Part shown: positions 15,182 to 56,670 of the stretch, one piece after another
Layout of the letters: each line of letters begins with the position of its first letter
How positions within the stretch are numbered: the stretch's first letter is position 1
NCBI RefSeq assembly: GCF_031312595.1
Contig: NZ_CP133592.1
Coordinates: 434,001 to 498,000, forward strand
Direction: 5' to 3'
DNA length: 64,000 bases
Origin: Methanolobus sediminis
GTDB taxonomy: Archaea; Halobacteriota; Methanosarcinia; Methanosarcinales; Methanosarcinaceae
Translations under genes and position numbers: made by a program
Notes under the pieces: model-generated
Seen by the model: only the letters and a program-made list of their open reading frames with translations
Databases searched by the model: none
What the model was told of the DNA's origin: nothing

Positions 15182-18100
15182 TTACTTCTTCTTGTATTCA
15201 ACTGTAATACCGTCCCAGCTTGAAATAACTTCGGCACCATCCTGATACATTACGAAAAGGTATGTTACATCTGGTGTTCCTGTTGGCACATATCCCTGCA
15301 GACTACTGAGGGTATACTTTACACCAAGGTAGTAGGTTTCACCAGGGGTCACACCTGTCACCGTAAGTACCGGATTTTCACCAGACATGTTCACGGTTGC
15401 ATTCTGGACCTTTAGACAGTCAGAATCCCAGAGGATAATCTGACCTTCATCCTGAATAGCTATGTCTGGCCATCCAGCAGTATTGTTCTGGTCGACCTCA
15501 ATAACCACAGTGTCACTAGTTGGTGTGACATCACTGTAGTAGAACATAACACCAGGTGCAACACTCTGGATTTCTCCTGTCTTCTTTAGGACCATGTAAT
15601 ATGCTGTTTCCAGATCATCCGCTGTGCCTGTTCTAAAGTCATAGCATGTAGTCTGGGTAGGAGCTATCTGGGCTGTTGCGTTGACCTGTGTAACCACGGC
15701 TGAAGCTGAAGCAAAGACAGGGGCACCTTGTGGATCATATCCTGTAACCGTTGCTGTGTTAGGCACGATGTTGGGGAACGGTCCAGCCAGATCAGCTGCC
15801 TGAATCATATAAGTACCTACGAATTCAGCAGACTGGCCTACTGACAATACACCAGTAAAGCTCGCATCTACCGCATTAACAGATGCAAGAAGCGTATCGG
15901 TCACAAACGTACCATTCAGAGTAACGGTACCATCGTTGGTAGCGTTGAGTGTATAGTGAATGACCTGACCTTCATAGGTGTATATTATTGGGTCAGCTGT
16001 CTTGGTCAGAGCTATGTGTGGATACTGTGGGATCATGACAGTCTCATCGTCGGTGTCATTGACAGTCTCATCCTGTGGACTGGTACCTTCAGCGGTTGCA
16101 TTGTTGTATACAGAGCCCATATCAAGGTCTGCCTGGGTAAGGGCATAGGTAGCAGTGAATGTAACCATATCACCAGGTGCAACTGAAGCATATTCGGCAG
16201 GTGTGATTGAACTCATGCCTGCGAGGATATCCTCCGTTACACTGACATTGTAGAGTGTAACTGTACCGATGTTGGTGACATTGAAGGTGTAGGAGACATT
16301 CTCGCCGACCTGGCCGTAACCATCACCACTCTCATCCATGAACTCACCTGTCTTGACAAGATCGATCATTGGATTCTCTGGGATCAGAACAGTCTCATCG
16401 TCGGTGTCATTGACAGTCTCATCCTGTGGACTGGTACCTTCAGCGGTTGCATTGTTGTATACAGAGCCCATATCAAGGTCTGCCTGGGTAAGGGCATAGG
16501 TAGCAGTGAATGTAACCATATCACCAGGTGCAAGTGAAGCATATTCAGCAGGTGTGATTGAACTCATGCCTGTGAGCATATCCTCCGTTACACTGACATT
16601 GTAGAGTGTAACTGTACCGATGTTGGTGACATTGAAGGTGTAGGAGACATTCTCGCCGACCTGGCCGTAACCATCTCCACTCTCATCCATGAACTCACCT
16701 GTCTTGACAAGATCGATCATTGGATTCTCTGGGATCATTACAGTCTCATCGTCGGTATCATTGACAGTTTCATCCTGTGGACTGGTACCTTCAGCGGTTG
16801 CATTGTTGTATACAGAGCCCATATCAAGGTCTGCCTGGGTAAGGGCATAGGTTGCAGTGAATGTAACCATATCACCAGGTGCAACTGAAGCATATTCAGC
16901 AGGTGTGATTGAACTCATGCCTGTGAGCATATCCTCCGTTACACTGACATTGTAGAGTGTAACTGTACCGATGTTGGTGACATTGAAGGTGTAGGAGACA
17001 TTCTCGCCGACCTGTCCGTAACCATCTCCACTCTCATCCATGAACTCACCTGTCTTGACAAGATCGATCATTGGATTCTCTGGGATCATTACAGTCTCAT
17101 CGTCGGTATCATTGACAGTCTCATCCTGTGGACTGGTACCTTCAGCGGTTGCATTGTTGTATACAGAGCCCATATCAAGGTCTGCCTGGGTAAGGGCGTA
17201 GGTTGCAGTGAATGTAACCATATCACCAGGTGCAAGTGAAGCATATTCGGCAGGTGTGATTGAACTCATGCCTGTGAGCATATCCTCCGTTACACTGACA
17301 TTGTAGAGTGTAACTGTACCGATGTTGGTGACATTGAAGGTGTAGGAGACATTCTCGCCGACCTGTCCGTAACCATCTCCACTCTCATCCATGAACTCAC
17401 CTGTCTTGACAAGATCGATCATTGGATTCTCTGGGATCATTACAGTCTCATCGTCGGTATCATTGACAGTTTCATCCTGTGGACTGGTACCTTCAGCGGT
17501 TGCATTGTTGTATACAGAGCCCATATCAAGGTCTGCCTGGGTAAGGGCGTAGGTTGCAGTGAATGTAACCATATCACCAGGTGCAAGTGAAGCATATTCG
17601 GCAGGTGTGATTGAACTCATGCCTGTGAGCATATCCTCCGTTACACTGACATTGTAGAGTGTAACTGTACCGATGTTGGTGACATTGAAGGTGTAGGAGA
17701 CATTCTCGCCGACCTGTCCGTAACCATCTCCACTCTCATCCATGAACTCACCTGTCTTGACAAGATCGATCATTGGATTCTCTGGGATCATTACAGTCTC
17801 ATCGTCGGTATCATTGACAGTTTCATCCTGTGGACTGGTACCTTCAGCGGTTGCATTGTTGTATACAGAGCCCATATCAAGGTCTGCCTGGGTAAGGGCG
17901 TAGGTTGCAGTGAATGTAACCATATCACCAGGTGCAAGTGAAGCATATTCAGCAGGTGTGATTGAACTCATGCCTGTGAGCATATCCTCCGTTACACTGA
18001 CATTGTAGAGTGTAACTGTACCGATGTTGGTGACATTGAAGGTGTAGGAGACATTCTCGCCGACCTGTCCGTAACCATCTCCACTCTCATCCATGAACTC

Positions 18101-21100
18101 ACCTGTCTTGACAAGATCGATCATTGGATTCTCTGGGATCATTACAGTCTCATCGTCGGTATCATTGACAGTTTCATCCTGTGGACTGGTACCTTCAGCG
18201 GTTGCATTGTTGTATACAGAGCCCATATCAAGGTCTGCCTGGGTAAGGGCGTAGGTTGCAGTGAATGTAACCATATCACCAGGTGCAAGTGAAGCATATT
18301 CAGCAGGTGTGATTGAACTCATGCCTGTGAGCATATCCTCCGTTACACTGACATTGTAGAGTGTAACTGTACCGATGTTGGTGACATTGAAGGTGTAGGA
18401 GACATTCTCGCCGACCTGTCCGTAACCATCTCCACTCTCATCCATGAACTCACCTGTCTTGACAAGATCGATCATTGGATTCTCTGGGATCATTACAGTC
18501 TCATCGTCGGTATCATTGACAGTTTCATCCTGTGGACTGGTACCTTCAGCGGTTGCATTGTTGTATACAGAGCCCATATCAAGGTCTGCCTGGGTAAGGG
18601 CGTAGGTTGCAGTGAATGTAACCATATCACCAGGTGCAAGTGAAGCATATTCGGCAGGTGTGATTGAACTCATGCCTGTGAGCATATCCTCCGTTACACT
18701 GACATTGTAGAGTGTAACTGTACCGATGTTGGTGACATTGAAGGTGTAGGAGACATTCTCGCCGACCTGTCCGTAACCATCTCCACTCTCATCCATGAAC
18801 TCACCTGTCTTGACAAGATCGATCATTGGATTCTCTGGGATCATTACAGTCTCATCGTCGGTATCATTGACAGTTTCATCCTGTGGACTGGTACCTTCAG
18901 CGGTTGCATTGTTGTATACAGAGCCCATATCAAGGTCTGCCTGGGTAAGGGCATAGGTTGCAGTGAATGTAACCATATCACCAGGTGCAACTGAAGCATA
19001 TTCGGCAGGTGTGATTGAACTCATGCCTGTGAGCATATCCTCCGTTACACTGACATTGTAGAGTGTAACTGTACCGATGTTGGTGACATTGAAGGTGTAG
19101 GAGACATTCTCGCCGACCTGTCCGTAACCATCTCCACTCTCATCCATGAACTCACCTGTCTTGACAAGATCGATCATTGGATTCTCTGGGATCATTACAG
19201 TCTCATCGTCGGTATCATTGACAGTCTCATCCTGTGGACTGGTACCTTCAGCGGTTGCATTGTTGTATACAGAGCCCATATCAAGGTCTGCCTGGGTAAG
19301 GGCATAGGTAGCAGTGAATGTAACCATATCACCAGGTGCAACTGAAGCATATTCGGCAGGTGTGATTGAACTCATGCCTGCGAGGATATCCTCCGTTACA
19401 CTGACATTGTAGAGTGTAACTGTACCGATGTTGGTGACATTGAAGGTGTAGGAGACATTCTCGCCGACCTGGCCGTAACCATCACCACTCTCATCCATGA
19501 ACTCACCTGTCTTGACAAGATCGATCATTGGATTCTCTGGGATCAGAACAGTCTCATCGTCGGTGTCATTGACAGTCTCATCCTGTGGACTGGTACCTTC
19601 AGCGGTTGCATTGTTGTATACAGAGCCCATATCAAGGTCTGCCTGGGTAAGGGCATAGGTAGCAGTGAATGTAACCATATCACCAGGTGCAACTGAAGCA
19701 TATTCGGCAGGTGTGATTGAACTCATGCCTGCGAGCATATCCTCCGTTACACTGACATTGTAGAGTGTAACTGTACCAATGTTGGTGACATTGAAGGTGT
19801 AGGAGACATTCTCGCCGACCTGGCCGTAACCATCACCACTCTCATCCATGAACTCACCTGTCTTGACAAGATCGATAGCTGGAGTCTGTGGTATTGGTAT
19901 ACTGTAAGAATCTGTATCGTTCACCTGTATACCCTGAGGACTGGTACCTACAGCTGTTGCTGTATTGTTGACCCATCCTGCGTTAATATCAGCCTGTGTG
20001 AGGTCATATTGTCCTGTGAATATCTGGTATTCTCCTGGATCCAGTGAGATATTAGTTGGTGTTATGTTATAGATGCCTAGCAGTATATCTGTGACATTCA
20101 CATAGTTGAGATTTATTGTACCATTGTTGGTAACATTGAATTCATAGTTGATCATGTCACCAGGTGTTGCCGTTCCATCTCCACCTACATCCAGTATACC
20201 TATTTTCTCGATATCTATTGACGGTGTACCTATAACGAGTACAGTTGCCGTATCAGTAGCAGTAAGGGTTGTAGGTTCGATAATTGAATCATTACCTGCT
20301 GCAGTAGCGGTGTTAATTACAATTCCCAAGGTAGATGGACTGAACAAATGCACCCCAGAAGCACTACCCCCTGCTGCAAGGTCATCAGCAGTTCCATCGC
20401 CATCAAGATCAGTAAGCAGCGTAGTCAATAGCAAAACGGCAAAATCATCAGTGTCATCACCAGATGTACCAGCATCATCGACTACATTTACATTGTAGAG
20501 AGGAGCATCTCCGTTATTTTCGACCACATAGAGGTACTTGACAGTTTCACCGTAAGTAATTGTCAATGAATCATTTCCGGGGAAATCTCCATCAGTTGTT
20601 GTTACGGTCTTAGTGATACTGATCATAGGATACCCAATGTTTCCGGTCTGCTTGAAAGGAATATTCTGTCCACTTCCCTGGGCAATATCGTCTGGTGGTT
20701 CCACTGCAGTATCATTATTAATAAATGTCAGCCAGGATTCCACAAGATCGGCCTGCAAATTACCTGTAGGGTTTGATCCGGGGTCGCAGAACAATTTAGT
20801 ATCTATCCTGACGACCACTGTTTCATTTGCATCCAGATCTGTAAGTTCAATGGTGGCCCACAATTCCGAGCCAGCAGTGAAAATTGGGCCAGTTGTTGTC
20901 TTACTTACAAGTGTTGCTACACTTCCGCCATCATCGTAGATTCCATCGTCAATGTTATTCTCGCCAGCGATCAGGTCCTCTATTGTGCCATAATTCACAT
21001 GCACGTCTACAACATCACCGATTGCTACACCGGATTGTCCAGTTGTATCCATCAAAAATGAAAAGTTCATCTCGATCGTTTGTGGCGCATCCGTTTGTGC

Positions 21101-21409
21101 AGATGCAGTATTATCAACATGTACGACTGCAAAGAAAGTGACAATATCACCACATTTGTAGTCGCCTCCTTCCAGCGAATTGACAATATCCTCATTTACA
21201 CCAACAGTTCCATCATCATAAGCACCACCACCTGTCAAGTGGTTATAACTTCCTGGTGCAGCTGCAACAAAGTCAACTGAAATATCACTGTCGGCTGCAG
21301 ATGCAACCATTGCCAATGATGTTATTATCAATGCCAATGCAAATAGCAATGTCACTGAAGATTTTACTCTTCCGTGCATAGCCACCGCTAGCTTTATGGT
21401 TTTGTTCAT
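15182..21409 (-). CDS. Giant secreted DUF11-repeat surface protein
   Basis: A 2075-residue exported protein. The ATG at 21409 follows GTGGAGTGG and opens a classic signal peptide (basic start, hydrophobic core LLFALALIITSLAMV, cleavage near residues 38-39 after ASA). After about 470 residues of beta-rich N-terminal sequence come a divergent DUF11 unit, eleven near-identical 117-residue DUF11 units (about residues 512-1798), one more divergent unit and a 160-residue C-terminal domain. Each identical unit has five N-X-S/T sequons and many acidic residues, suggesting a glycosylated, salt-tolerant surface fibre or envelope component. No membrane anchor or sorting motif is visible at the C terminus, which ends EYKKK. 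Adhesion or an S-layer accessory role is inference. Confidence 0.85.
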   Translation of the reverse strand: MNKTIKLAVAMHGRVKSSVTLLFALALIITSLAMVASAADSDISVDFVAAAPGSYNHLTGGGAYDDGTVGVNEDIVNSLEGGDYKCGDIVTFFAVVHVDNTASAQTDAPQTIEMNFSFLMDTTGQSGVAIGDVVDVHVNYGTIEDLIAGENNIDDGIYDDGGSVATLVSKTTTGPIFTAGSELWATIELTDLDANETVVVRIDTKLFCDPGSNPTGNLQADLVESWLTFINNDTAVEPPDDIAQGSGQNIPFKQTGNIGYPMISITKTVTTTDGDFPGNDSLTITYGETVKYLYVVENNGDAPLYNVNVVDDAGTSGDDTDDFAVLLLTTLLTDLDGDGTADDLAAGGSASGVHLFSPSTLGIVINTATAAGNDSIIEPTTLTATDTATVLVIGTPSIDIEKIGILDVGGDGTATPGDMINYEFNVTNNGTINLNYVNVTDILLGIYNITPTNISLDPGEYQIFTGQYDLTQADINAGWVNNTATAVGTSPQGIQVNDTDSYSIPIPQTPAIDLVKTGEFMDESGDGYGQVGENVSYTFNVTNIGTVTLYNVSVTEDMLAGMSSITPAEYASVAPGDMVTFTATYALTQADLDMGSVYNNATAEGTSPQDETVNDTDDETVLIPENPMIDLVKTGEFMDESGDGYGQVGENVSYTFNVTNIGTVTLYNVSVTEDILAGMSSITPAEYASVAPGDMVTFTATYALTQADLDMGSVYNNATAEGTSPQDETVNDTDDETVMIPENPMIDLVKTGEFMDESGDGYGQVGENVSYTFNVTNIGTVTLYNVSVTEDMLTGMSSITPAEYASVAPGDMVTFTATYALTQADLDMGSVYNNATAEGTSPQDETVNDTDDETVMIPENPMIDLVKTGEFMDESGDGYGQVGENVSYTFNVTNIGTVTLYNVSVTEDMLTGMSSITPAEYASLAPGDMVTFTATYALTQADLDMGSVYNNATAEGTSPQDETVNDTDDETVMIPENPMIDLVKTGEFMDESGDGYGQVGENVSYTFNVTNIGTVTLYNVSVTEDMLTGMSSITPAEYASLAPGDMVTFTATYALTQADLDMGSVYNNATAEGTSPQDETVNDTDDETVMIPENPMIDLVKTGEFMDESGDGYGQVGENVSYTFNVTNIGTVTLYNVSVTEDMLTGMSSITPAEYASLAPGDMVTFTATYALTQADLDMGSVYNNATAEGTSPQDETVNDTDDETVMIPENPMIDLVKTGEFMDESGDGYGQVGENVSYTFNVTNIGTVTLYNVSVTEDMLTGMSSITPAEYASLAPGDMVTFTATYALTQADLDMGSVYNNATAEGTSPQDETVNDTDDETVMIPENPMIDLVKTGEFMDESGDGYGQVGENVSYTFNVTNIGTVTLYNVSVTEDMLTGMSSITPAEYASLAPGDMVTFTATYALTQADLDMGSVYNNATAEGTSPQDETVNDTDDETVMIPENPMIDLVKTGEFMDESGDGYGQVGENVSYTFNVTNIGTVTLYNVSVTEDMLTGMSSITPAEYASVAPGDMVTFTATYALTQADLDMGSVYNNATAEGTSPQDETVNDTDDETVMIPENPMIDLVKTGEFMDESGDGYGQVGENVSYTFNVTNIGTVTLYNVSVTEDMLTGMSSITPAEYASLAPGDMVTFTATYALTQADLDMGSVYNNATAEGTSPQDETVNDTDDETVLIPENPMIDLVKTGEFMDESGDGYGQVGENVSYTFNVTNIGTVTLYNVSVTEDILAGMSSITPAEYASVAPGDMVTFTATYALTQADLDMGSVYNNATAEGTSPQDETVNDTDDETVMIPQYPHIALTKTADPIIYTYEGQVIHYTLNATNDGTVTLNGTFVTDTLLASVNAVDASFTGVLSVGQSAEFVGTYMIQAADLAGPFPNIVPNTATVTGYDPQGAPVFASASAVVTQVNATAQIAPTQTTCYDFRTGTADDLETAYYMVLKKTGEIQSVAPGVMFYYSDVTPTSDTVVIEVDQNNTAGWPDIAIQDEGQIILWDSDCLKVQNATVNMSGENPVLTVTGVTPGETYYLGVKYTLSSLQGYVPTGTPDVTYLFVMYQDGAEVISSWDGITVEYKKK
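16016..19876 (-). repeat. Eleven tandem 351-bp near-identical DUF11 repeats
   Basis: The motif GATCGATC recurs exactly every 351 bases from 16360 to 19519, and its edge copy lies at 19870, giving eleven 117-codon units. Central copies differ by only a handful of bases, while the first two and the last share a different set of variants (for example ATCAGAACAGTCTC at two junctions). The array is in frame and entirely inside the DUF11 gene. Confidence 0.95.
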
Positions 21410-21901
21410 TGTTTCCACTCCACAGTAGTATTTTCTTTGACAATGTGAAATACTATGACTTGATCTGTTATGCAGAAACAAACAGAGACTTAACTACCCC
21501 ATGAAATCTACTGTTTCAAAAAAACTTCTGCTGACATTGAAGTTATAGGCTTCCACACCGTAAACTCCGATATTACATATTCTGTTTGTATGTTATATAT
21601 TCATATGTGATTTTTATAAGAAGTGTAGAAAATATTCAGTTACTATTATTTTATTTTGTAAATCTTATGCAAAAATAGCACTTTTTGAGCAATATATTAA
21701 TAAATTCATTTTAAAAAAAGACCTTCATTTCCAGACATTATCTTTGTCTTAACCACACCAACTATTATTATAGTTAATCAATGTATATTTATTTCTCTTA
21801 TCGTATATGTATTTACTTGTGCAGTACAATCTCCTTTAAGAAATTTTCTAATTAGCTCTAAAATCCCTCCATTCTAATTAGACTTATCGCGCCAGAACAA
21901 T
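21410..21901. other. Long AT-rich upstream region of the DUF11 gene, no gene seen
   Basis: This stretch holds no convincing coding frame on either strand. It contains the leader and promoter of the leftward DUF11 gene, including the GGAG site next to its start, and several AT-rich candidate TATA elements. It ends at the phosphorylase remnant. Confidence 0.5.
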
Positions 21902-24528: not shown

Positions 24529-25779
24529 ATGATGCGTGCTATTTTAGTTAAGAGGAATGACCCCAGGTCTGAAGATGAAAAGAATGAGCTGCAAATGAAT
24601 GAGCTACGGGAACTTGCCGGAGCTGCAGGCTACAAAGTTATTTCCGAACTGACCCAGACACGGCATCCTGACCGCAAGTATCATCTTGGCAGAGGAAAGG
24701 TTGAGGAACTTGCACTGATTGTTGCAGACCTGAAACCCGATAAGGTCATATTCCATAATCCTCTCAGCACCATGCAAATCTACAACATTTCTGAAACATG
24801 CCGCTGTGAGACCATCGATAAATTTCAGCTTATCCTGGAGATATTCGCAACCAGAGCCACTACCCATCGTTCAAAATTACAGGTTGAACTTGCAAGGCTG
24901 GAATACGAACTCCCACGTGCAAGAGCAGTGATATCTATCCTGAAAAAAGATGAAAGACCTGGTTTTATGGGGCTTGGCGGTTATGAAGACTCATATGCGC
25001 AGGATATCAAAAATCGTATGACACGCATCAGGAATGAACTTGAGACCATACAGAAAGATAATGAGTCATTACGGGCACATCGTCATTCAAAAGGTTTTTC
25101 ACTTGCATCGCTTGCAGGTTACACTAATGCAGGAAAAAGCACTCTTTTTAATGCTCTTGTGGATGAAAATGTCGAATCAAAGGATATGTTATTCACCACT
25201 CTGTTACCCACAACAAGATCACTTAAAGTAGAGGGTCGTGATATCCTTATTACAGATACTGTAGGTTTTATAGAAGATCTCCCACACTGGATGGTTGACG
25301 CTTTCAGGTCAACACTTGATGAGATATTCCTTGCAGATGTGGTTCTCCTTGTAGTAGATTCTTCGGAAACGTTCGAAACTATACGCAAAAAACTTCTTGT
25401 ATGTCATGAAACAATGTGGGACCAGTTGCAGGATGTTGCCATTGTGACTGTTTTTAACAAGATAGATCTCATAATAGATGATGAACTGCAGGAAAAGATC
25501 ACAGGTCTTGCATATCTTGCTCCAAATCCTGTTTCTGTATCTGCAAAAACCGGTTTTGGATTTGAAGAACTCAAAACAAAGATACGAGACCTTTTACCTG
25601 AATGGAAAAGGATCGAACTTACAATACCACTATCAGAAGAAGGCATGTCACTTGTAGCATGGATATATGATGAAGGGGTTGTTCACAGTATCAATTACAC
25701 AGATGTAATTTCAATTGATTTTGAAGCAAGGGACAAGGTTATAAATAAAGCCATATCTCTAGTGAATGGACTATCATGA
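24529..25779 (+). CDS. hflX: Ribosome-associated GTPase HflX
   Basis: HflX is a TRAFAC-class GTPase that binds the 50S subunit and can split stalled ribosomes. The 416-residue protein has the N-terminal HflX domain (HPDRKYHLGRGKVEEL), a linker with RSKLQVELARLEYELPR, a glycine-rich PGFMGLGGYE segment, then the G domain: G1 GYTNAGKST (residues 197-205), G3 DTVGFIEDLP, and G4 NKID. A C-terminal domain follows. ATG codons occur at 24529 and 24532; either works. It follows the DUF2209 gene closely and precedes the candidate small RNA. Confidence 0.93.
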   Translation: MMRAILVKRNDPRSEDEKNELQMNELRELAGAAGYKVISELTQTRHPDRKYHLGRGKVEELALIVADLKPDKVIFHNPLSTMQIYNISETCRCETIDKFQLILEIFATRATTHRSKLQVELARLEYELPRARAVISILKKDERPGFMGLGGYEDSYAQDIKNRMTRIRNELETIQKDNESLRAHRHSKGFSLASLAGYTNAGKSTLFNALVDENVESKDMLFTTLLPTTRSLKVEGRDILITDTVGFIEDLPHWMVDAFRSTLDEIFLADVVLLVVDSSETFETIRKKLLVCHETMWDQLQDVAIVTVFNKIDLIIDDELQEKITGLAYLAPNPVSVSAKTGFGFEELKTKIRDLLPEWKRIELTIPLSEEGMSLVAWIYDEGVVHSINYTDVISIDFEARDKVINKAISLVNGLS

Positions 25780-25823: not shown

Positions 25824-25832
25824 TTATATATA
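25824..25832 (+). promoter_or_regulatory. TATA box for the candidate small RNA
   Basis: TTATATATA lies about 27-30 bases before the base of the stem-loop RNA at 25858, the normal archaeal TATA-to-start distance. No reading frame begins downstream of it within the expected range. Confidence 0.5.
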
Positions 25833-25855
25833 TATGCTATCGAGTAGTTAGCATA

Positions 25856-25940
25856 TATGCGAACGGGAAATACTCTAATGTACCACCAATCCTATCCAAC
25901 CACCCAACCACCAAAATTCTATCCCCGTTCGCAGTTTTTC
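25856..25940 (+). ncRNA. Candidate small RNA: closed stem with C/A-rich loop
   Basis: A perfect 10-bp stem (TGCGAACGGG at 25858-25867 with CCCGTTCGCA at 25924-25933) encloses a 56-base loop that is almost free of G and rich in CCACC and ACCC repeats, followed by TTTTT. A TATA box is correctly spaced upstream. It lies between hflX and the PHP gene and contains no plausible ORF. The loop could pair with GGTGG/GGTGAT-type ribosome binding sites; that target idea is inference. I recognise no named RNA family. Confidence 0.5.
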
Positions 25941-26024
25941 TATTAATCACACTTGTTTGATTCTACCTTATTTTAGCCGTTGAATCTAAATATCTTTATT
26001 AACCTTTAAGACCAAGTTGCTTAC

Positions 26025-26696
26025 ATGAAGTTCGATCTTCACGTTCATTCCTGTTATTCTAAAGACAGCAACGCCAGTCTGGATGATATTCTTGAATATG
26101 CTGCTTCAAACGGACTCGATGGTTTTGCAATATGTGACCATGACCGCATCGAAGGTGGGTTTGCCTGTGCAAAAAGAGCAGAAGAACTCGGCTCAAAACT
26201 GATTGTCATTCCAGGTGTTGAAGTCAGCTCCTCAAAAGGCCACATCCTTGTGCTCGGTATCCGTGAGCCAATAGAACCAGGACTCAGTCCTGAAGATACA
26301 ATCGAAAAAGCACGTCAACAAGATGCAGTTGTTATAATTCCACATCCTTTTAAACTGACATCCCATGGAATAGGTTACATTGAAGGACTGGATGCAGATG
26401 CAATCGAAGTCCTGAATTCAAGGTGTGTAACTGATGGCCCCAATAACAAAGCCCAAAAAGCTGCGGAAGAGCTTGGATTCCCTATGGTGGGAGGAAGTGA
26501 TTCTCATGAAGCTGAAATGGTGGGCAGATCCTATACCAACATTGACACTGATGCCACAACAGCTGAAGAAGTGCTGGATGCCATAAGAGCAGGAAAAACA
26601 AGCCCGAGTGGCAGGAAAACACCTGTGTCATTTGTGGTGAAGCAAATGTTCATAGGACACATAAACAAACTTGGAAGACGTCTTGGAATGAGATAA
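26025..26696 (+). CDS. PHP-domain metal-dependent phosphoesterase
   Basis: A 223-residue PHP-family protein. Metal-binding motifs are visible in order: LHVHSCYSKDS near the N terminus, CDHDRIEGG, PGVEVSS with GHILVLG, PHPFK, and GGSDSHEAEMVG near residue 160. PHP proteins hydrolyse phosphoesters, including nucleotides, RNA and histidinol phosphate; the exact substrate is not evident. There is no fused polymerase domain. A TATA-like ATCTTTATTAACC about 28 bases upstream and no Shine-Dalgarno suggest a leaderless transcript. It converges on the dihydromethanopterin reductase gene. Confidence 0.82.
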   Translation: MKFDLHVHSCYSKDSNASLDDILEYAASNGLDGFAICDHDRIEGGFACAKRAEELGSKLIVIPGVEVSSSKGHILVLGIREPIEPGLSPEDTIEKARQQDAVVIIPHPFKLTSHGIGYIEGLDADAIEVLNSRCVTDGPNNKAQKAAEELGFPMVGGSDSHEAEMVGRSYTNIDTDATTAEEVLDAIRAGKTSPSGRKTPVSFVVKQMFIGHINKLGRRLGMR

Positions 26697-32229: not shown

Positions 32230-32615
32230 AGTGAGAGAGGAAGGACGGCCGCCGGGTCATTTGACCTGAGGAAAGTCTCCCCACCTTCTAAACACACGAA
32301 TGCCTGTAAAGGGCATCGGGCGAGAGCCCGGGCAGTTGCTTTGCAACTCATGTGCTCTGCACATGCTGGCACAGAAACGATACCTTACCATGTAAATGCA
32401 ATGATGCTTAAAAAGCTGAGGTCTCATGGAATGCGGATGGAACGGCGAATCCTCGTGGGTGCAAGTCAGTAGTAGGGGGCAATGGTTGTTTAGACCATTC
32501 CTGAAGTTTATGTACGCGTAGCCGAATGCCGTCAATGCAGCTCTTTATGAGCGCATCATTCTACCAGGTTGGAATAATGTATTGCATTAACAGAAGGGAG
32601 CTTACTCTCCTCACT
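32230..32615 (+). ncRNA. rnpB: RNase P RNA
   Basis: The catalytic RNA of RNase P, which removes 5' leaders from pre-tRNAs. Signature elements appear in order: a P1 5' arm AGTGAG at 32230, the universal GAGGAAAGTC block at about 32269, CACAGAAACGATACC near 32370 (CR II/III-type region), GGGTGCAAGTCAG near 32457, and a closing ACAGAAGGGAGCTTAC block near 32590 (CR V region), ending with the P1 3' arm CTCACT. Overlapping open frames here are coincidental. The ends are set by the P1 pairing; the true 3' end may be a few bases off. Confidence 0.92.
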
Positions 32616-32638
32616 CAACAATACTCTGATTTCAGGTA

Positions 32639-48717: not shown

Positions 48718-51700
48718 ATGTTAGGAATGAATGATAAATTAAAAACAGAACTTATTGATGTACTTGAGGCTGTGAACTCAGGAGATTCAGACATCAGAAT
48801 CTCCCCTAAAGATTCAAAACAAGATAATCAAATCACACAATCACTAAACTCCCTTTTGGATGACTATTTTTCCCTTAAAACCGAAGTAATACAAAAAAGA
48901 AGTATAATCGAACTGAAAGAAGCTGAAGATTTCCATAATCAAATGCTTGCTGATCAGGTAATTAATCTTATTGATTCTATAGTAGAAGGAAAGCTTGATG
49001 CTCGCGGTGATACATCTGGATTAAGTGGCAGTTGCAAAGATGTACTTACAGGTGTAAACCAGCTTCTTGATGCGGTTATGGGACCACTCAATGTTTCAGC
49101 TGAATACATAGACCGAATATCAAAAGGAGATATTCCGCAGAAAATTACTGATGATTATAAAGGTGACTTCAACGAGATAAAAAACAACCTAAATATGTGT
49201 ATTGACGCTGTCAATGCTCTGGTAGAAGATTCTATCATGCTGGCACAGGCAGGAGTTGAAGGACAACTTGACATGCGTGCTGATGCCAGCAGACACAATG
49301 GAGATTTCCGAAAAGTTGTGGAAGGAGTAAACGGCTGTCTGGATGCATTCATTGGTCCACTGAACGTTGCAGCAGAATACATTGACCGCATATCAAAAGG
49401 AGATATTCCGCAGAAGATCACAGATTCATATAGTGGGGACTTCAACGAAATCAAGAATAACCTCAATCTTTGTATAGATTCTATTAATTCACTACTTGAA
49501 GAAGCAGAATTCCTTACAGATGCTGCAATCGAAGGAAAACTGACAACTCGTGCAAATACTGCAAAATTCAGTGGTGAATATGCCCATCTTGTGGAAGGAA
49601 TGAACCACGTTGTAGAGACCCTTGTAGGCCATATAGATAGTATCCCGGTACCATTCATGATAATTGACCGTGATTACAATGTCAATTATGTTAACACAAA
49701 AGCAGCGGAAACCGTGAACCTCACAACTGACTCCATGGTTGGCACAAAATGCTACGATCACTATAATACTAATGTATGTAAAACCGACAGCTGTGTATGT
49801 ACACGTTCTATGACCTCAGATTTAACAGAACATGGAGAAGCCATTGCGAACCTTGGCAAAGATGTACATATTACTTGCAGTGGTGTTCCACTGAAGAACA
49901 GGGAAGGAAATATCATAGGTTCCCTTGAAATATTCATGGACCAGACAGAAGTTAAGAATGCTCTTGAAGACTCCAGTTCTAAAGTAGAACTCCTTAATAG
50001 AATTCCGGCTCCTGTTATGGCAGTTGATAAAGAATTCAATGTTACATTCATGAATCCTGCAGGAGCAAATGCAGTCGGAAAAACTGCTGTTGAATGTTCC
50101 GGCATGAAATGTTACGAACTATTCAATACGCCACACTGCCAAACAGAGAATTGCCGCGTTGCCAGAGCCATGAATAATGGATCAGTGTCTTCAGCAGATA
50201 CCGTTGCACATCTGCCATCAGGAGACTTACCAATTCGCTACACTGCGACTCCTTTAAAGAATAGTGAAGGAGAAATCATCGGTGGTCTTGAATATGTAAT
50301 GGACATGACCTCTGAAGTCAATGTCACAAAGGAAGTACTCAAACTTGCAGATGCAGCTATTAACGGAAGACTCGATGCACGTGCCGACATAAACCAGTTT
50401 GAAGGTAACCCAAGGGACATAGTCAATGCTGTGAACGAAACTCTTGACTCTTTAATTGGCCCATTAAATGTAGCAGCCGAGTATATTGATCGTATCTCAA
50501 AAGGTGACATACCTGAAAAAATCACAGACGAATACTATGGAGATTTCAATGAGATCAAGAACAATCTTAACCAATGTATTGATGCAGTCAATGAACTTGT
50601 TTCCGATGCCAACATGCTGGCAGAAGCTGCCATAGAAGGCAGACTTGATACCCGCGCCAATGCATCCAGACATGGTGGTGACTACCGTGCCATCGTTGAA
50701 GGTGTAAATAATACACTTGATGCTGTCATTGGTCCACTTAATGTTGCTGCAGAATATGTTGACAGTATAGCACACGGAAATATTCCTGAAAAGATCACTG
50801 ATGAGTATAATGGTGATTTCAGTGAAATCAAGGATAACCTTAACCGATGTATCGATGCAATCAATGCTATGATCAGTGATGCGAATATGCTGACAGAAGC
50901 CGCTGTAGAAGGTAGACTAGACACCCGTGCTGATGAAACTAAGCATCAGGGTGATTTCCGTGTAATTGTTGAAGGTGTTAATAATACCCTTGATGCTGTC
51001 ATCGGTCCTCTAAATGTTGCGGCTGAATACATTGACAGAATATCCAAAGGCGATGTTCCTGCGTGTATCACTGACACTTATAATGGAGACTTCAATGAAA
51101 TAAAGAACAATATCAATACCTGTATTGATGCAATCAATCTCCTCGTAAAGGATTCTCAACTATTGGCACAGGCTGGCGTAAATGGACAACTTTCAGTTCG
51201 TGCAGATGATTCACAGCATGGTGGCGATTTCGCCAGAATTGTTTCTGGTTTTAATAATACACTGGACGCTATTGTTACTCCATTGAACATAAGTTGTGAA
51301 GTGCTTAACTCATATGCAAAGGGTGATCTGGATGCCAGAATTACGACGAAGATGAACGGTGACTTTGATGAACTGGCAAATACCCTGAACTCTTATGGCG
51401 CTAACCTTCAGGAACTGATAGATGATTCCAGCGAGGTTTTAGCAGAGATATCAAAGGACAATCTTACAAGAGGAATTACTGTAGAGTCCGTTGGAGATTT
51501 CAGAAAGCTTACCAATGGAATTGAAAATGCACGTATGTCACTCAACGATGTTGTTTCACACGTAATGAACGTTGCAGAGATGGTGGTAAATACCGCCGAT
51601 AATATGTCTGCAGCAACCACACAACTTAATTCTTCAGCAAACGAAGTTTCAGGGACAGTGGAGGAAATTGCCAGAGGATCACAGGACCAGTCCACCAAAA

Positions 51701-52563
51701 CAGAAGATGCATCACGTACCATGCAGCACATGACGCAGAGTATCCAGGATGTTGCACGCAATTCACAGAATGTTGCAAGTCATGCACGTGAATCTAACCA
51801 GAGAATGACCGAACTTGGAAGGACCAGCAATGAACTTCTCAAAATGATGGATGGTATAAAAGATGCTGTATCCGGCTCTGCTTCTGTAATCAACAACCTG
51901 GAAGAAAAATCAAAGCGTATTGATGAGATCGTCAACCTCATTACAAGCATCGCTGACCAGACGAACCTGCTTGCCCTGAATGCTGCAATAGAAGCAGCAC
52001 GTGCAGGAGAACATGGTCGTGGATTTGCTGTTGTAGCAGACGAGGTGAGAAAACTTGCAGAAGATTCAGGAAACGCTGCAAAGCAGATTGCAGACCTTAT
52101 TCATGAGATCCAGGACGGTACTTCTGAGGCAGTTGCCTCCATGGAGATGGGTACTACAGAAGTTACAAAGGGTGCAGAGTCATTAGGTGAAGGAGTTAGG
52201 GAAATCGAACAGGTCATTATTGCTGTGGAGGATATCACCAAGATGGTTGTAGACATTGCTGCTGCTGCTGAAGAACAATCCGCTGCCATTGAACAGGTGG
52301 CCTCATCCATTGAAGAGGTCGCAGCAATTTCCGAAGAAACAGCAGCAGGAACTGAAGAAACAGCAGCAGCGGTTCAGGAACAAACATCTTCAATGCATGA
52401 ACTCGCAAACTCTGCTGATGAGTTATCAGAGATTGCAAAAGACATGAAGAAGGTGGTCAACAGGTTCAGAATAGTGTGTACAGAAGCCAGACTGAATAAT
52501 GATTCCGGCTCCGAAAAAACAGAAACAAATGAATTACCTCTAAAGAATGCTGTATTGCTCTGA
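48718..52563 (+). CDS. Soluble methyl-accepting chemotaxis protein with serial HAMP and two Cys-PAS domains
   Basis: A 1281-residue chemoreceptor without signal peptide or membrane helix. After an N-terminal segment shared with chemoreceptor 2 come about 13 alternating HAMP-like units (patterns [17 protein letters not shown] and [14 protein letters not shown]). Two PAS domains interrupt them; each carries KCY near residues 344 and 463, followed by a C..T..C cluster ([22 protein letters not shown]). The C-terminal signalling domain has the hairpin tip [18 protein letters not shown] near residue 1080 that contacts CheA/CheW. The cysteine clusters may bind a cofactor or sense redox state; this is inference. 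A ruined cheW follows. Confidence 0.9.
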
Positions 52564-53040: not shown

Positions 53041-56000
53041 ATGTTAGGGAAAAACAACAAGCTATATAGTGAGATCATCGATGTTCTGGGATCTTTTGAA
53101 GAAGGCAGGTCAGATATCAGACTGAGTACTGAATCAACAGGTACCGAGAAAGACATGACTGAAGCATTGAACACATTTCTGGAAAAAGCTGCTGGATGGA
53201 AAAAAGAAGCTGAACAGCAACAGGAACTATCAAAGCAGGTAAACCAGATGGTTAATGCAACAGTTGAAGGTCAGCTTGATGTGAGGATGAAAACAGAAGA
53301 CTTTGAGGGTGACTTCAGGAACCTTGCAACAGGCATCAACAAAATGATTGATGCAATTGTAACTCCATTTACAGCTGCATCAAAATATGTTACTCGTCTC
53401 TCAAATGGAGATATTCCACCTAAGATTACAAAGGAATTCAAAGGTAGTTACAATGATTTCAAAAACAATCTCAACATTTGTGTAGATGCTATCAATGCTC
53501 TTATCGAAGATTCCGATATGCTGGCACAAGCCGGATCTGCAGGTAATGTTGATATTCGTGCAGATGCCACCAGACATGGCGGAGAATTCAGGACTATTAT
53601 AGAGAACCTGAACAATACTCTTGATTCTATTGCAAAACCATTGAACGAAAGTACAGATATTCTACTCAAACTGGCTGTCAATGACTTTGATAACGGTGTA
53701 GAAGGAGAATATGACGGAATTTTCAAAGACAATTCCTATGCTGTTAATGAGGTTCGCAACAGACTTCTGAACATCCAGCGTACATTCGAGTTCATGGCCA
53801 GAGGTGACTTCAGCGACCTTCCAAGATACAAACAGGCTGGAAAGCGCTCTGATAATGACAAGTTATTGCCATATACAGTCGGACTTATGGAAACAGTCAA
53901 AGGAATGGCAGATGAATTTATTGAACTTGGCCATGCTGCAGAAGCTGGAAATCTGGAATACAGAGTAGATTCTTCAAAGTTCGATGGTCTTTTCCAGGAA
54001 GCTGTTGGTACCGTTAACAATGCATTTGACGCTATTATCGATCCACTTAATGTAGCTGCTGATTATGTTGACAGTATCTCAAAAGGAGAGATCCCTGAAA
54101 AGATCACAGATGATTATCATGGTGACTTCAACAAGATAAAAGACAACATCAATGCATGTATTGATGGTCTGGGAGGAATGCTGGAGGCAAATAGTGTACT
54201 GCAAAAAATGGCAGTTAACGATTATACCAGTTATGTTGAAAACAACTACCAGGGAATCTATGCAGAAGTTGGCAATGCAGTAAATGATGTCCGTGATCGT
54301 CTACTCCATATAACAGACACCGCCCAGAACATATCACGTGGAGATATGAGTGACCTTGAAGCATACCGTGAGGTAGGTAATGGAGCTGGAAAACGTTCTG
54401 ATAATGATAATATTACTCCTTCTTTCATAAAAATGATGGAAAATGTCAATGGTATGATCAACGAGACTGTTGACCTTACAGATGCAGCCAAGGCAGGAAA
54501 TCTAAGTTACAGAGCAGATTCTTCTGCATATGAAGGTGGATTTAAACTTGTTCTTGATGGTATCAATGAAACACTCAACTCTGTAGTAGATCCACTTAAT
54601 GTTGCTGCAGACTATGTTGACAGTATTTCAAAAGGTAATATTCCTGAGAAAATCACCGACGAATACAATGGTGACTTCAACCACATAAAAGATAACCTCA
54701 ACCAGTGTATCGATGCTGTGAACATGCTTGTTGATGATGCTTTGTTACTGGCAAATGCCGGTGTAGAAGGGCGCCTTGAAGTAAGAGCAGACGCTTCCAG
54801 ACACACAGGAGACTTTAGTAAAGTTGTCGAAGGAGTGAACAATTGCCTGGATGCGATTATCTCCCCATTGAACGTAACTGCGAGTTATGTTGAGCAAATA
54901 TCAAGAGGAGAAATTCCTGAAAAGATAACTGATGAATATCTGGGAGATTTCAACAATATAAAGAACAACATCAATGATTGTATTGATGGTCTTGGTGGCC
55001 TTGTAGAATCAAATGAAGTACTTCAGCTCATGGTTGACAACGACCATACAAGAACTGTAGAAGGTGATTACCAAGGAATCTATGCAGAAGTTGCAAATGC
55101 TACAAACGGCATCCGTCAAAGAATACTTACAGTAATGGGTGTTAATAAGAATATTGCAGTCGGTAACCTTAGTGATCTCGAGGGACTCAAGAAAGTTGGA
55201 AAACGCTCAGAGAATGATGAACTTATTCCATGCTACATCACAATGATGACCAATATTGAGAATCTTGGTCATGAATTCGTTAAACTCGGTAATGCAGCAA
55301 AGAGTGGTAGCCTTGACTACAAGGCTGATTCATCGCAATTTGAAGGTGCATATAAGGATGCAATCGATGCTGTCAGTGAGGCAATCGATGCACTGGTAAC
55401 ACCAATGAACGAAGCAATGCGCATGGTCAATGAATTCTCTGAAGGAAATCTGGATGCAAGGTTCAGCTTTGAAACAGAAGGTGACTTTAAAATATTCGCT
55501 GATACCGTTGATGCATTTGGAAACAACTTGGAGGCAATTATTGCAGATTCCTCTCATGTACTGGAAGCAATTGCAAATAATGATCTCAGCCAGGCTGTTT
55601 CTGTCCATGGAGTAGGTGAATTCCAGGTCCTTACAGATAATGTAGAGAACACCAGAATATCATTGAACAATGTTGTTTCAATGGTACATAAGAGCTCAAG
55701 GGACGTTGCATCAACTTCCGAGGAGATGTCAGCATCCGTAGAGCAGATGACTTCTGCATCCTATCAGATCTCTGACACGGTGTCTGAAATATCAAAAGGC
55801 GCACAGAGTCAGGCAGCAAAGACTGAAGAGGTCTCCCGTGCAATGGTTGACATGACCATGACAGTACAGGAAGTTGCCATCAATTCACAGAAAGCAGCCG
55901 AGACTGCAAAGGATTCAAACGAACTTATCAATAACCTTGGTATAACTACTAAAGATCTTGTTATGAAAATGGATTCTATCAAAGAAGCTACTGGCGAATC

Positions 56001-56670
56001 ATCAAATGTAATTATGCAGCTTGACGGAAAATCCAAGCAGATTGGTGAGATCGTAAACCTCATTACCAATATCGCGGACCAGACCAACCTTCTTGCACTC
56101 AATGCAGCCATTGAGGCAGCACGTGCAGGTGAGCATGGTCGCGGATTCGCCGTGGTTGCTGATGAAGTCAGGAAGCTTGCTGAGGATTCAGGTAATGCAG
56201 CTAAACAGATATCCACTCTCATTAGTGAGATTCAGGAAGGAACACAGAATGCGGTTACATCAATGCAGCAGGGTTCAGAAGAAGTTGAACTGGGAGCAGC
56301 CGCCCTTCAGGAAGCTGCTAGCATTATTCAGAGTGTAGTTGAATCTGGAAACACTATAGCAAATATGGTTCAGGATATTGCGGCTGCCGCACAGGAGCAA
56401 TCTGCTTCAATTGAAGAGGTCACATCCTCTGTAGAAGAAGTCAGCGCAATTTCTGAGGAGTCCGCAGCAGGAACCGAAGAGGCATCTGCAGCAGTACAGG
56501 AACAGACTGCTACAATGCAGGAACTTTCAAGATCAGCAGAGGATCTTTCAAGCCTTGCTGGCGAGATGAAAGCGGTTGTTGATAAGTTCATACTTGATTC
56601 TAGTTCCTCATCCGGTTCTGATGAATCCGGAATAAGAAATACAGAAAAGATAGAGCATGCTCTTGTTTAA
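53041..56670 (+). CDS. Soluble methyl-accepting chemotaxis protein with serial HAMP units
   Basis: A 1209-residue paralogue of chemoreceptor 1, also lacking membrane helices, signal peptide and PAS domains. Its N terminus ([20 protein letters not shown]) is homologous to that of chemoreceptor 1. HAMP-like units alternate with three copies of a second module ending KRSDND or KRSEND followed by a helical segment, not seen in receptor 1. The signalling tip [18 protein letters not shown] lies near residue 1010. GGGTGA precedes the ATG at 53041. An intact cheW follows 14 bases later, so receptor and adaptor are surely co-transcribed. Ligand unknown. Confidence 0.9.

Follow-up and report, generated by a model that had tools for sequence, protein, structure and literature searches.

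To our knowledge, very few archaeal small RNAs (sRNAs) have known targets. In M. mazei, sRNA154, sRNA162, and sRNA41 are described as masking ribosome binding sites (RBSs), which sRNA41 does within the polycistronic ACDS mRNAs, repressing ACDS (PMC5867862; PMC3510493). The gene of sRNA154 is reported to lie between MM3337 and MM3338, with the NrpR operator GGTA-N6-TACC (PMC3177094), and sRNA162 is a 191-nt RNA with three stem-loops that adjoins an ArsR gene (MM2441/MM2442) (PMC3510493). For Methanolobus psychrophilus R15, a dRNA-seq study describes 195 sRNAs, nine of which are conserved, cold-induced, and share an upstream “cold box” (PMC5378194).

Here, we analyze a candidate sRNA gene at positions 25824-25940 of a 64,000-nt stretch of Methanolobus sediminis DNA (the window), together with a paralog that carries the same stem (the window copy is referred to as type A and the paralog as type B). 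The window RNA, which has a single stem, a size of ~75-90 nt, and hflX and a PHP-domain gene as neighbors, is probably a further example of the archaeal RBS-masking sRNAs, a known kind. Like sRNA154, it is an intergenic small RNA with a loop that would mask an RBS (PMC5867862); unlike sRNA154, which is described as having two stem-loops and the NrpR operator, it has one stem, other neighbors, and no GGTA-N6-TACC in its promoter. With sRNA162/171 it shares a single-stranded variable region that would pair with an RBS inside an operon, as well as duplicated RNA copies (PMC3510493), whereas its single stem, its size, and its hflX/PHP neighbors set it apart. The likeness to sRNA41, compared here by its published description, lies in the organism family and in the presumed mode of action; in addition, the type B loop fits the starts of cdhB and cdhD in the operon that sRNA41 targets, and Methanosarcina-like genomes carry a same-stem ortholog at hflX. 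However, sRNA41 is described as targeting ACDS, and the window RNA shows no fit to ACDS. The window RNA may also have its counterpart among the 195 sRNAs described for M. psychrophilus. In bacteria, C-rich anti-Shine-Dalgarno (anti-SD) sRNAs (RsaE type, cuckoo RNAs) aim an unpaired C-rich loop at G-rich SD regions; these are unrelated to the window RNA, and the resemblance does not imply membership.

We consider it likely that the element is a stand-alone small noncoding RNA gene whose loop would act in trans to block selected mRNA starts, and that it was duplicated into types A and B in Methanolobus. As such, it would offer an sRNA family whose stem is fixed, whose loop varies from species to species, and which has undergone a duplication, together with two concrete target predictions, and the hosts belong to a family that includes the genetically tractable Methanosarcina. 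The evolution of archaeal sRNA targets would thereby become directly testable, and the family could carry sRNA41/ACDS regulation beyond Methanosarcina.

The element between hflX and the PHP gene

A first-pass annotation, made from the letters of the window, had described a TATA box, a perfect 10-bp stem, a 56-base loop with almost no G, and a T5 tail at 25824-25940. All of these features are confirmed as real:

24529-25779, + strand: hflX (ribosome-associated GTPase), the upstream neighbor (Pfam GTP-bdg_N, MMR_HSR1, HflX_C)
25824-25835, + strand: TATA box of the proposed small-RNA gene, from the sequence (TTATATATATATGC spans 25824-25837)
25844-25853, + strand: promoter-proximal element GTnGTTwGTA, here GTAGTTAGCA, from column conservation
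25858-25867, + strand: 5' strand of the closing stem, TGCGAACGGG, the perfect complement of 25924-25933
25868-25923, + strand: single-stranded C/A-rich loop of 56 nt (probability of pairing, 0.05; sole G at 25880)
25877-25912, + strand: conserved loop core, AATGTACCACCAATCCTATCCAACCACCCAACCACC, from an alignment of 30 genomes
25877-25904, + strand: predicted enolase-start pairing site (AAUGUAC, 25877-25883; AUCCUAU, 25889-25895; CCACC, 25900-25904)
25924-25933, + strand: 3' strand of the closing stem, CCCGTTCGCA, pairing with 25858-25867
25935-25939, + strand: T5 tract TTTTT, a possible terminator (T runs lie near most, not all, orthologs)
25995-26002, + strand: the PHP gene's separate TATA box, 30 nt upstream of the ATG (30-31 nt at 26 of 30 orthologous loci)
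26025-26696, + strand: PHP-domain protein gene, the downstream neighbor (Pfam PHP, PHP_C)

The fold of 25824-25940 reaches -25.8 kcal/mol, compared with -12.0 ± 2.9 for shuffled sequences (z = -4.9; 0 of 200 as good). In the window copy, the pairing probability is above 0.99 in the stem and 0.05 in the loop, and across 29 orthologs the loop forms an accessible single-stranded region (0.05-0.08) in which G accounts for 2.1% of the bases. When the 64-kb window was scanned for perfect 10-bp inverted repeats with at least four G/C and loops of 40-80 nt, this element was the single one found. The complementary strand also folds well; the + strand is taken as the transcript since the conserved promoter is on the side that makes + strand RNA. 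In agreement with the first-pass annotation, which had recognized no known RNA family, the Rfam 15 covariance models gave nothing at the gathering threshold (just chance matches at E up to 10). Neither a C box (RUGAUGA) nor a D box (CUGA) occurs in 25858-25933, nor is there any Rfam match, which argues against a C/D box guide RNA. Elsewhere in the window, the archaeal RNase P RNA lies at 32233-32616 (Rfam RF00373, 157.5 bits), and 15182-21481 on the minus strand encodes a secreted-type repeat protein of ~2,100 amino acids with about ten near-identical repeats of ~120 residues.

The promoter is conserved in its own right. When columns are counted from the first G of the stem, those of the TATA box (-33 to -24) carry 1.3-2.0 bits in the 27 Methanolobus, save for column -32 with 0.3, and most columns of the GTnGTTwGTA block (-15 to -6) carry 1.8-2.0 bits. 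The same block is found ahead of the paralog and of the RNAs in other genera; in the paralog as in these RNAs, TTTATAT begins at -30 and ACGAAA lies ahead of TTTATAT. Since the PHP gene's own TATA box lies 30 nt from the ATG, the transcript of this gene is probably separate and leaderless. The distance from TATA to stem in the small-RNA gene (~30 nt) equals that from TATA to ATG in the PHP gene, and from this spacing we infer that the RNA would begin at the stem, at 25858-25860. The 3' end is uncertain since T runs follow the element in most species and not in all: within 60 nt, runs of at least four T are present in 23 of the 27 Methanolobus and runs of at least five in 15 of 27. The proposed T5 tail is thus present in the window but not strictly kept across the genus.

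The neighboring genes suggest a different reading, in which the element acts in cis, as a leader or attenuator for PHP or as the hflX 3' UTR, given that in every genome examined both genes flank it on its own strand. However, downstream of hflX the element is preceded by a conserved promoter of its own, the position of the PHP TATA box in 26 of 30 loci probably leaves no leader to regulate, and the paralog is found at an unrelated locus. We regard such a cis-acting role as hardly plausible.

The position and sequence of the element are highly conserved. All 30 of the 30 aligned genomes have it between hflX and the PHP gene, in the same orientation as these genes, and the alignment shows the two strands of the stem as essentially invariant and the loop core as nearly so, while the flanking HflX is 61-94% identical; the CCAACC/CCACC units of the loop have been gained and lost among species. 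Using blastn, we found the element as a single copy in the source genome (2.8 Mb), and it is also present in all 26 other Methanolobus species and in Methanomethylovorans. A 23-base loop string occurs, among named genomes, exclusively in Methanolobus, Methanomethylovorans, and other Methanosarcinaceae. There is no long antisense partner in its own genome, where blastn at E up to 10 returns the gene alone. This conservation is far beyond chance. The first-pass annotation had made its proposal depend on the stem persisting in relatives that retain the hflX-PHP neighborhood, and in the genomes examined the stem is clearly kept where the two genes still adjoin. Altogether, a stand-alone small-RNA gene is well supported by synteny, by its own conserved promoter, and by related RNAs elsewhere, and the element very likely represents a real, conserved small-RNA gene.

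The element had also been described as lacking an open reading frame. An ATG-headed frame (22 codons in the window) does cross the loop, and it is found in 26 of 29 orthologs checked, but it is not conserved as a frame: three orthologs (G008, G017, and G003) have no ATG, G012 has a one-base deletion, and the frame is absent from the paralog and from the RNAs of other genera. Ortholog loop lengths vary by non-multiples of three, and conservation extends to every base and is not codon-like. Judged from these sequence patterns, the element is not coding, and the loop is conserved as RNA sequence rather than as protein. A dual role, in which the RNA would also specify a short peptide (MYHQSYPTTQ...), would account for the frequency of the frame and has been proposed for M. 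mazei sRNA154, in which a small ORF is reported (PMC11456600); however, the lost ATGs, the shifted frame, the non-triplet length changes, and the absence of codon-like conservation make this scarcely credible for the window RNA.

A constant stem with different loops

A covariance model of the element, searched against 112 genomes of the family, matched 27 of 27 Methanolobus and six of six Methanomethylovorans, and gave weaker matches in addition. The weaker matches have an identical stem (GCGAACGGG...CCCGTTCGC), other C-rich loops, and a shared promoter composed of GTTCGTN6-7ACGAAA, TATA, and GTyGTTwGTA, and many of them are located downstream of hflX; hflX-downstream regions added the genera g5 and g11 and further members of g7. 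The RNA family is thus found in eight of the 14 genera sampled (Methanolobus, Methanomethylovorans, g3, g4, g5, g7, g11, and g12, where we take g7 to be Methanosarcina and g3 to be Methanococcoides), and it was not found in g2, g6, g8, g9, g10, and g13. The stem measures 9-10 bp and the loop 54-67 nt; the loops of different genera differ completely, and the stem is unchanged.

Over 25 diverse members, 99.6% of the pair cells are standard, and sliding the stem partner by 1-3 columns cuts pairing to 33-47%. The changes that do occur keep pairing (G-C to A-T, C-G to T-A, A-T to G-C, and G-T wobbles). The first-pass annotation had proposed a covariance search for compensatory changes. Both sides have changed at three of nine stem pairs, with the observed values reached by 0-1 of 500 shuffles, but the sequences behind this covariation are few; for two of these three pairs, the source is a Methanosarcina-like RNA whose stem reads GTGAGCGGG and whose promoter differs, possibly an analogue and not a homolog.

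In 23 of 27 Methanolobus, a second RNA has the same stem (type B; L080 at G000:C1:946314-946396, minus strand, in the source genome, L081-L091, and L094-L097). It sits between a FtsX/MacB-like permease gene and a small conserved gene (proteins named by eye). Type B retains the upstream repeat GTTCGTN6-7ACGAAA, which the window copy does not have. The repeat is rare in the six genomes scanned, and the copies ahead of these RNAs are among those found in promoter position. We also note the same inverted repeat, as GTTCGTN6RCGAAA, in two Methanolobus genomes at L197 (G000:C1:2780196) and L192 (G001:C1:848189), each in a similar noncoding region with no obvious stem RNA after it.

These repeats bear on whether the stem could be a DNA operator, i.e., a pair of sites for one transcription factor with the core GTTCGYA. 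This core is found in the inverted repeat upstream of the paralog (GTTCGTN6-7ACGAA) and in both stem strands, and GTTCGT...ACGAAA, rare elsewhere in the genomes, lies ahead of the paralog's promoter and of those of the orthologs in other genera. However, the window copy lacks the upstream repeat and yet has a perfect stem, the stem changes are pair-preserving, as expected for RNA, and the conserved loop would be left unexplained. We consider an operator very unlikely.

A protein partner would be another explanation, with loop and stem binding an RNA chaperone or translation factor instead of mRNAs, such that the RNA serves as a sponge or scaffold. Consistent with this, the stem is invariant in sequence and not just in pairing, the loop core hardly varies across 30 genomes, the CCAACC repeat units vary in number, and pairing at gene starts is not enriched overall (see below). 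Against it, genus-specific loops on a constant stem fit changing mRNA partners better than one protein partner, and specific conserved matches at start regions exist. We therefore regard a protein-binding RNA as unlikely and continue with a loop that would act on mRNAs.

Candidate targets of the type A and type B loops

The first-pass annotation had proposed that the loop is complementary to ribosome binding sites, such as those ahead of the two chemoreceptor genes of the window. We scanned 370 gene starts in a 464-kb sample of the source genome (the window plus 400 kb), using dinucleotide-shuffled loops as the control. Over these starts, the type A loop pairs no better than shuffled loops (mean of -9.3 vs -9.8 kcal/mol), i.e., without general enrichment, and the type B loop is not clearly stronger (mean of -12.6 vs -11.9 kcal/mol, with a standard deviation of the shuffled means of 0.5). 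A fixed-spacing RBS pattern search matched almost nothing, the pattern being too strict. General anti-SD action is thus unsupported by loop pairing at gene starts. One of the two chemoreceptor starts ranked first in the window in a looser duplex scan, but this lead vanished under the shuffled-loop control (for the two starts, z = -0.38 and 0.02, with equally good pairing in 33% and 44% of shuffled loops). A trans-acting translational regulator is still the best guess, but with other candidate targets than those first proposed, and trans action through the loop on mRNA start regions seems to us reasonably likely. As a separate observation, both long chemoreceptors (48718-52560 and 53041-56667) contain six HAMP_2 stretches each.

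Several other candidates were rejected. An HxlR-type regulator had the best energy in one genome, but its match was lost in divergent species with an unchanged loop, and a match to cooC falls within the coding sequence rather than at a start. ACDS gave no signal for the type A RNA (mean z for cdhA-E between -0.7 and +1.0). The Methanosarcina-like hflX RNA matched its own cdh starts mainly through SD-like CCTCCTAA, with modest and inconsistent z values.

The best conserved candidate for type A is enolase, whose start (AGGTGGAATAGGATGCCGTATATT) is predicted to form three helices with the loop, colinear on the mRNA. The mean z is -2.44 in 26 Methanolobus, compared with a mean of -0.27 (standard deviation, 0.85) for 19 orthologous starts, although enolase was chosen as a top match of the 370-gene scan in one genome, which makes z there post hoc, and orthologous RBSs are in any case conserved to some extent. 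With the type B loop, the mean z for enolase is 0.17, and in Methanomethylovorans z is weak (-0.4 to -1.1). Directly before its ATG, the enolase gene carries an AGG in most Methanolobus and in four of five Methanomethylovorans, both of which have the type A loop; the AGG is missing in the sampled genera without this loop, which amounts to one phylogenetic contrast. We propose enolase as a tentative target of the type A RNA.

For type B, the start of cdhD (GGTGGAATGCACATG) is predicted to pair with UGUGCAUU-CAA-CCACCUU at -23.0 kcal/mol (z = -4.2 in the source genome). The mean z is -2.2 to -2.3 for cdhD and weaker for cdhB (-1.4 to -1.5), and the type B loop shows no fit to the starts of cdhA, cdhC, and cdhE. 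Four Methanolobus in which type B was not found conserve the cdhD spacer just as well, and its conservation is therefore not proof of targeting. We judge the chances that the ACDS operon is a target of the type B paralog to be evenly balanced.

These predictions suggest how the RNAs would work. Transcription from the element's own promoter would start at the base of the invariant 9-10 bp stem, which would hold the loop single-stranded and, being constant, would protect the RNA ends or be gripped by a protein. The G-poor loop would then pair in trans with selected mRNAs, at their G-rich ribosome-binding and start-codon regions, thereby blocking translation. In Methanolobus, an ancestral hflX-linked RNA was apparently duplicated: the copy at hflX (type A) would have acquired a new loop, possibly directed at enolase, and the second copy (type B) would have kept the ancestral promoter, with a loop that fits cdhB and cdhD. 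More speculatively, one promoter-stem cassette may have resided at hflX since the ancestor of most Methanosarcinaceae and carried exchangeable anti-start-site loops (“one clamp, many loops”), such that each genus rewires translation through a changed loop or a duplicated cassette; the Methanolobus copies would then have split enolase and ACDS between them, coordinating central carbon flow. We consider this broader scenario doubtful.

Further candidate RNAs were observed. Those of Methanosarcina-like genomes (L113, L116, and L118) have a GTGAGCGGG/CCCGCTCAC stem, loops of repeated CCCCCAACTATT units, and a different promoter. One genome of g3 (G106) carries two tandem hflX-linked copies (L109/L184), each preceded by its own promoter and, upstream, by a GTTCG...CGAAA repeat. 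In g4, stem RNAs with the loop ACGTACCACCCCCACTTCCACC lie away from hflX (L102-L106), three of them downstream of a PurE-like gene. Finally, some Methanolobus have a third candidate RNA (L093, L098, and L099, in G026, G005, and G015) with a GGCCGG stem and a TATA box ~28 nt upstream; it is not at hflX, and its loop (CGTACCACCAA...CCAACCAACC) is very like the type A loop.
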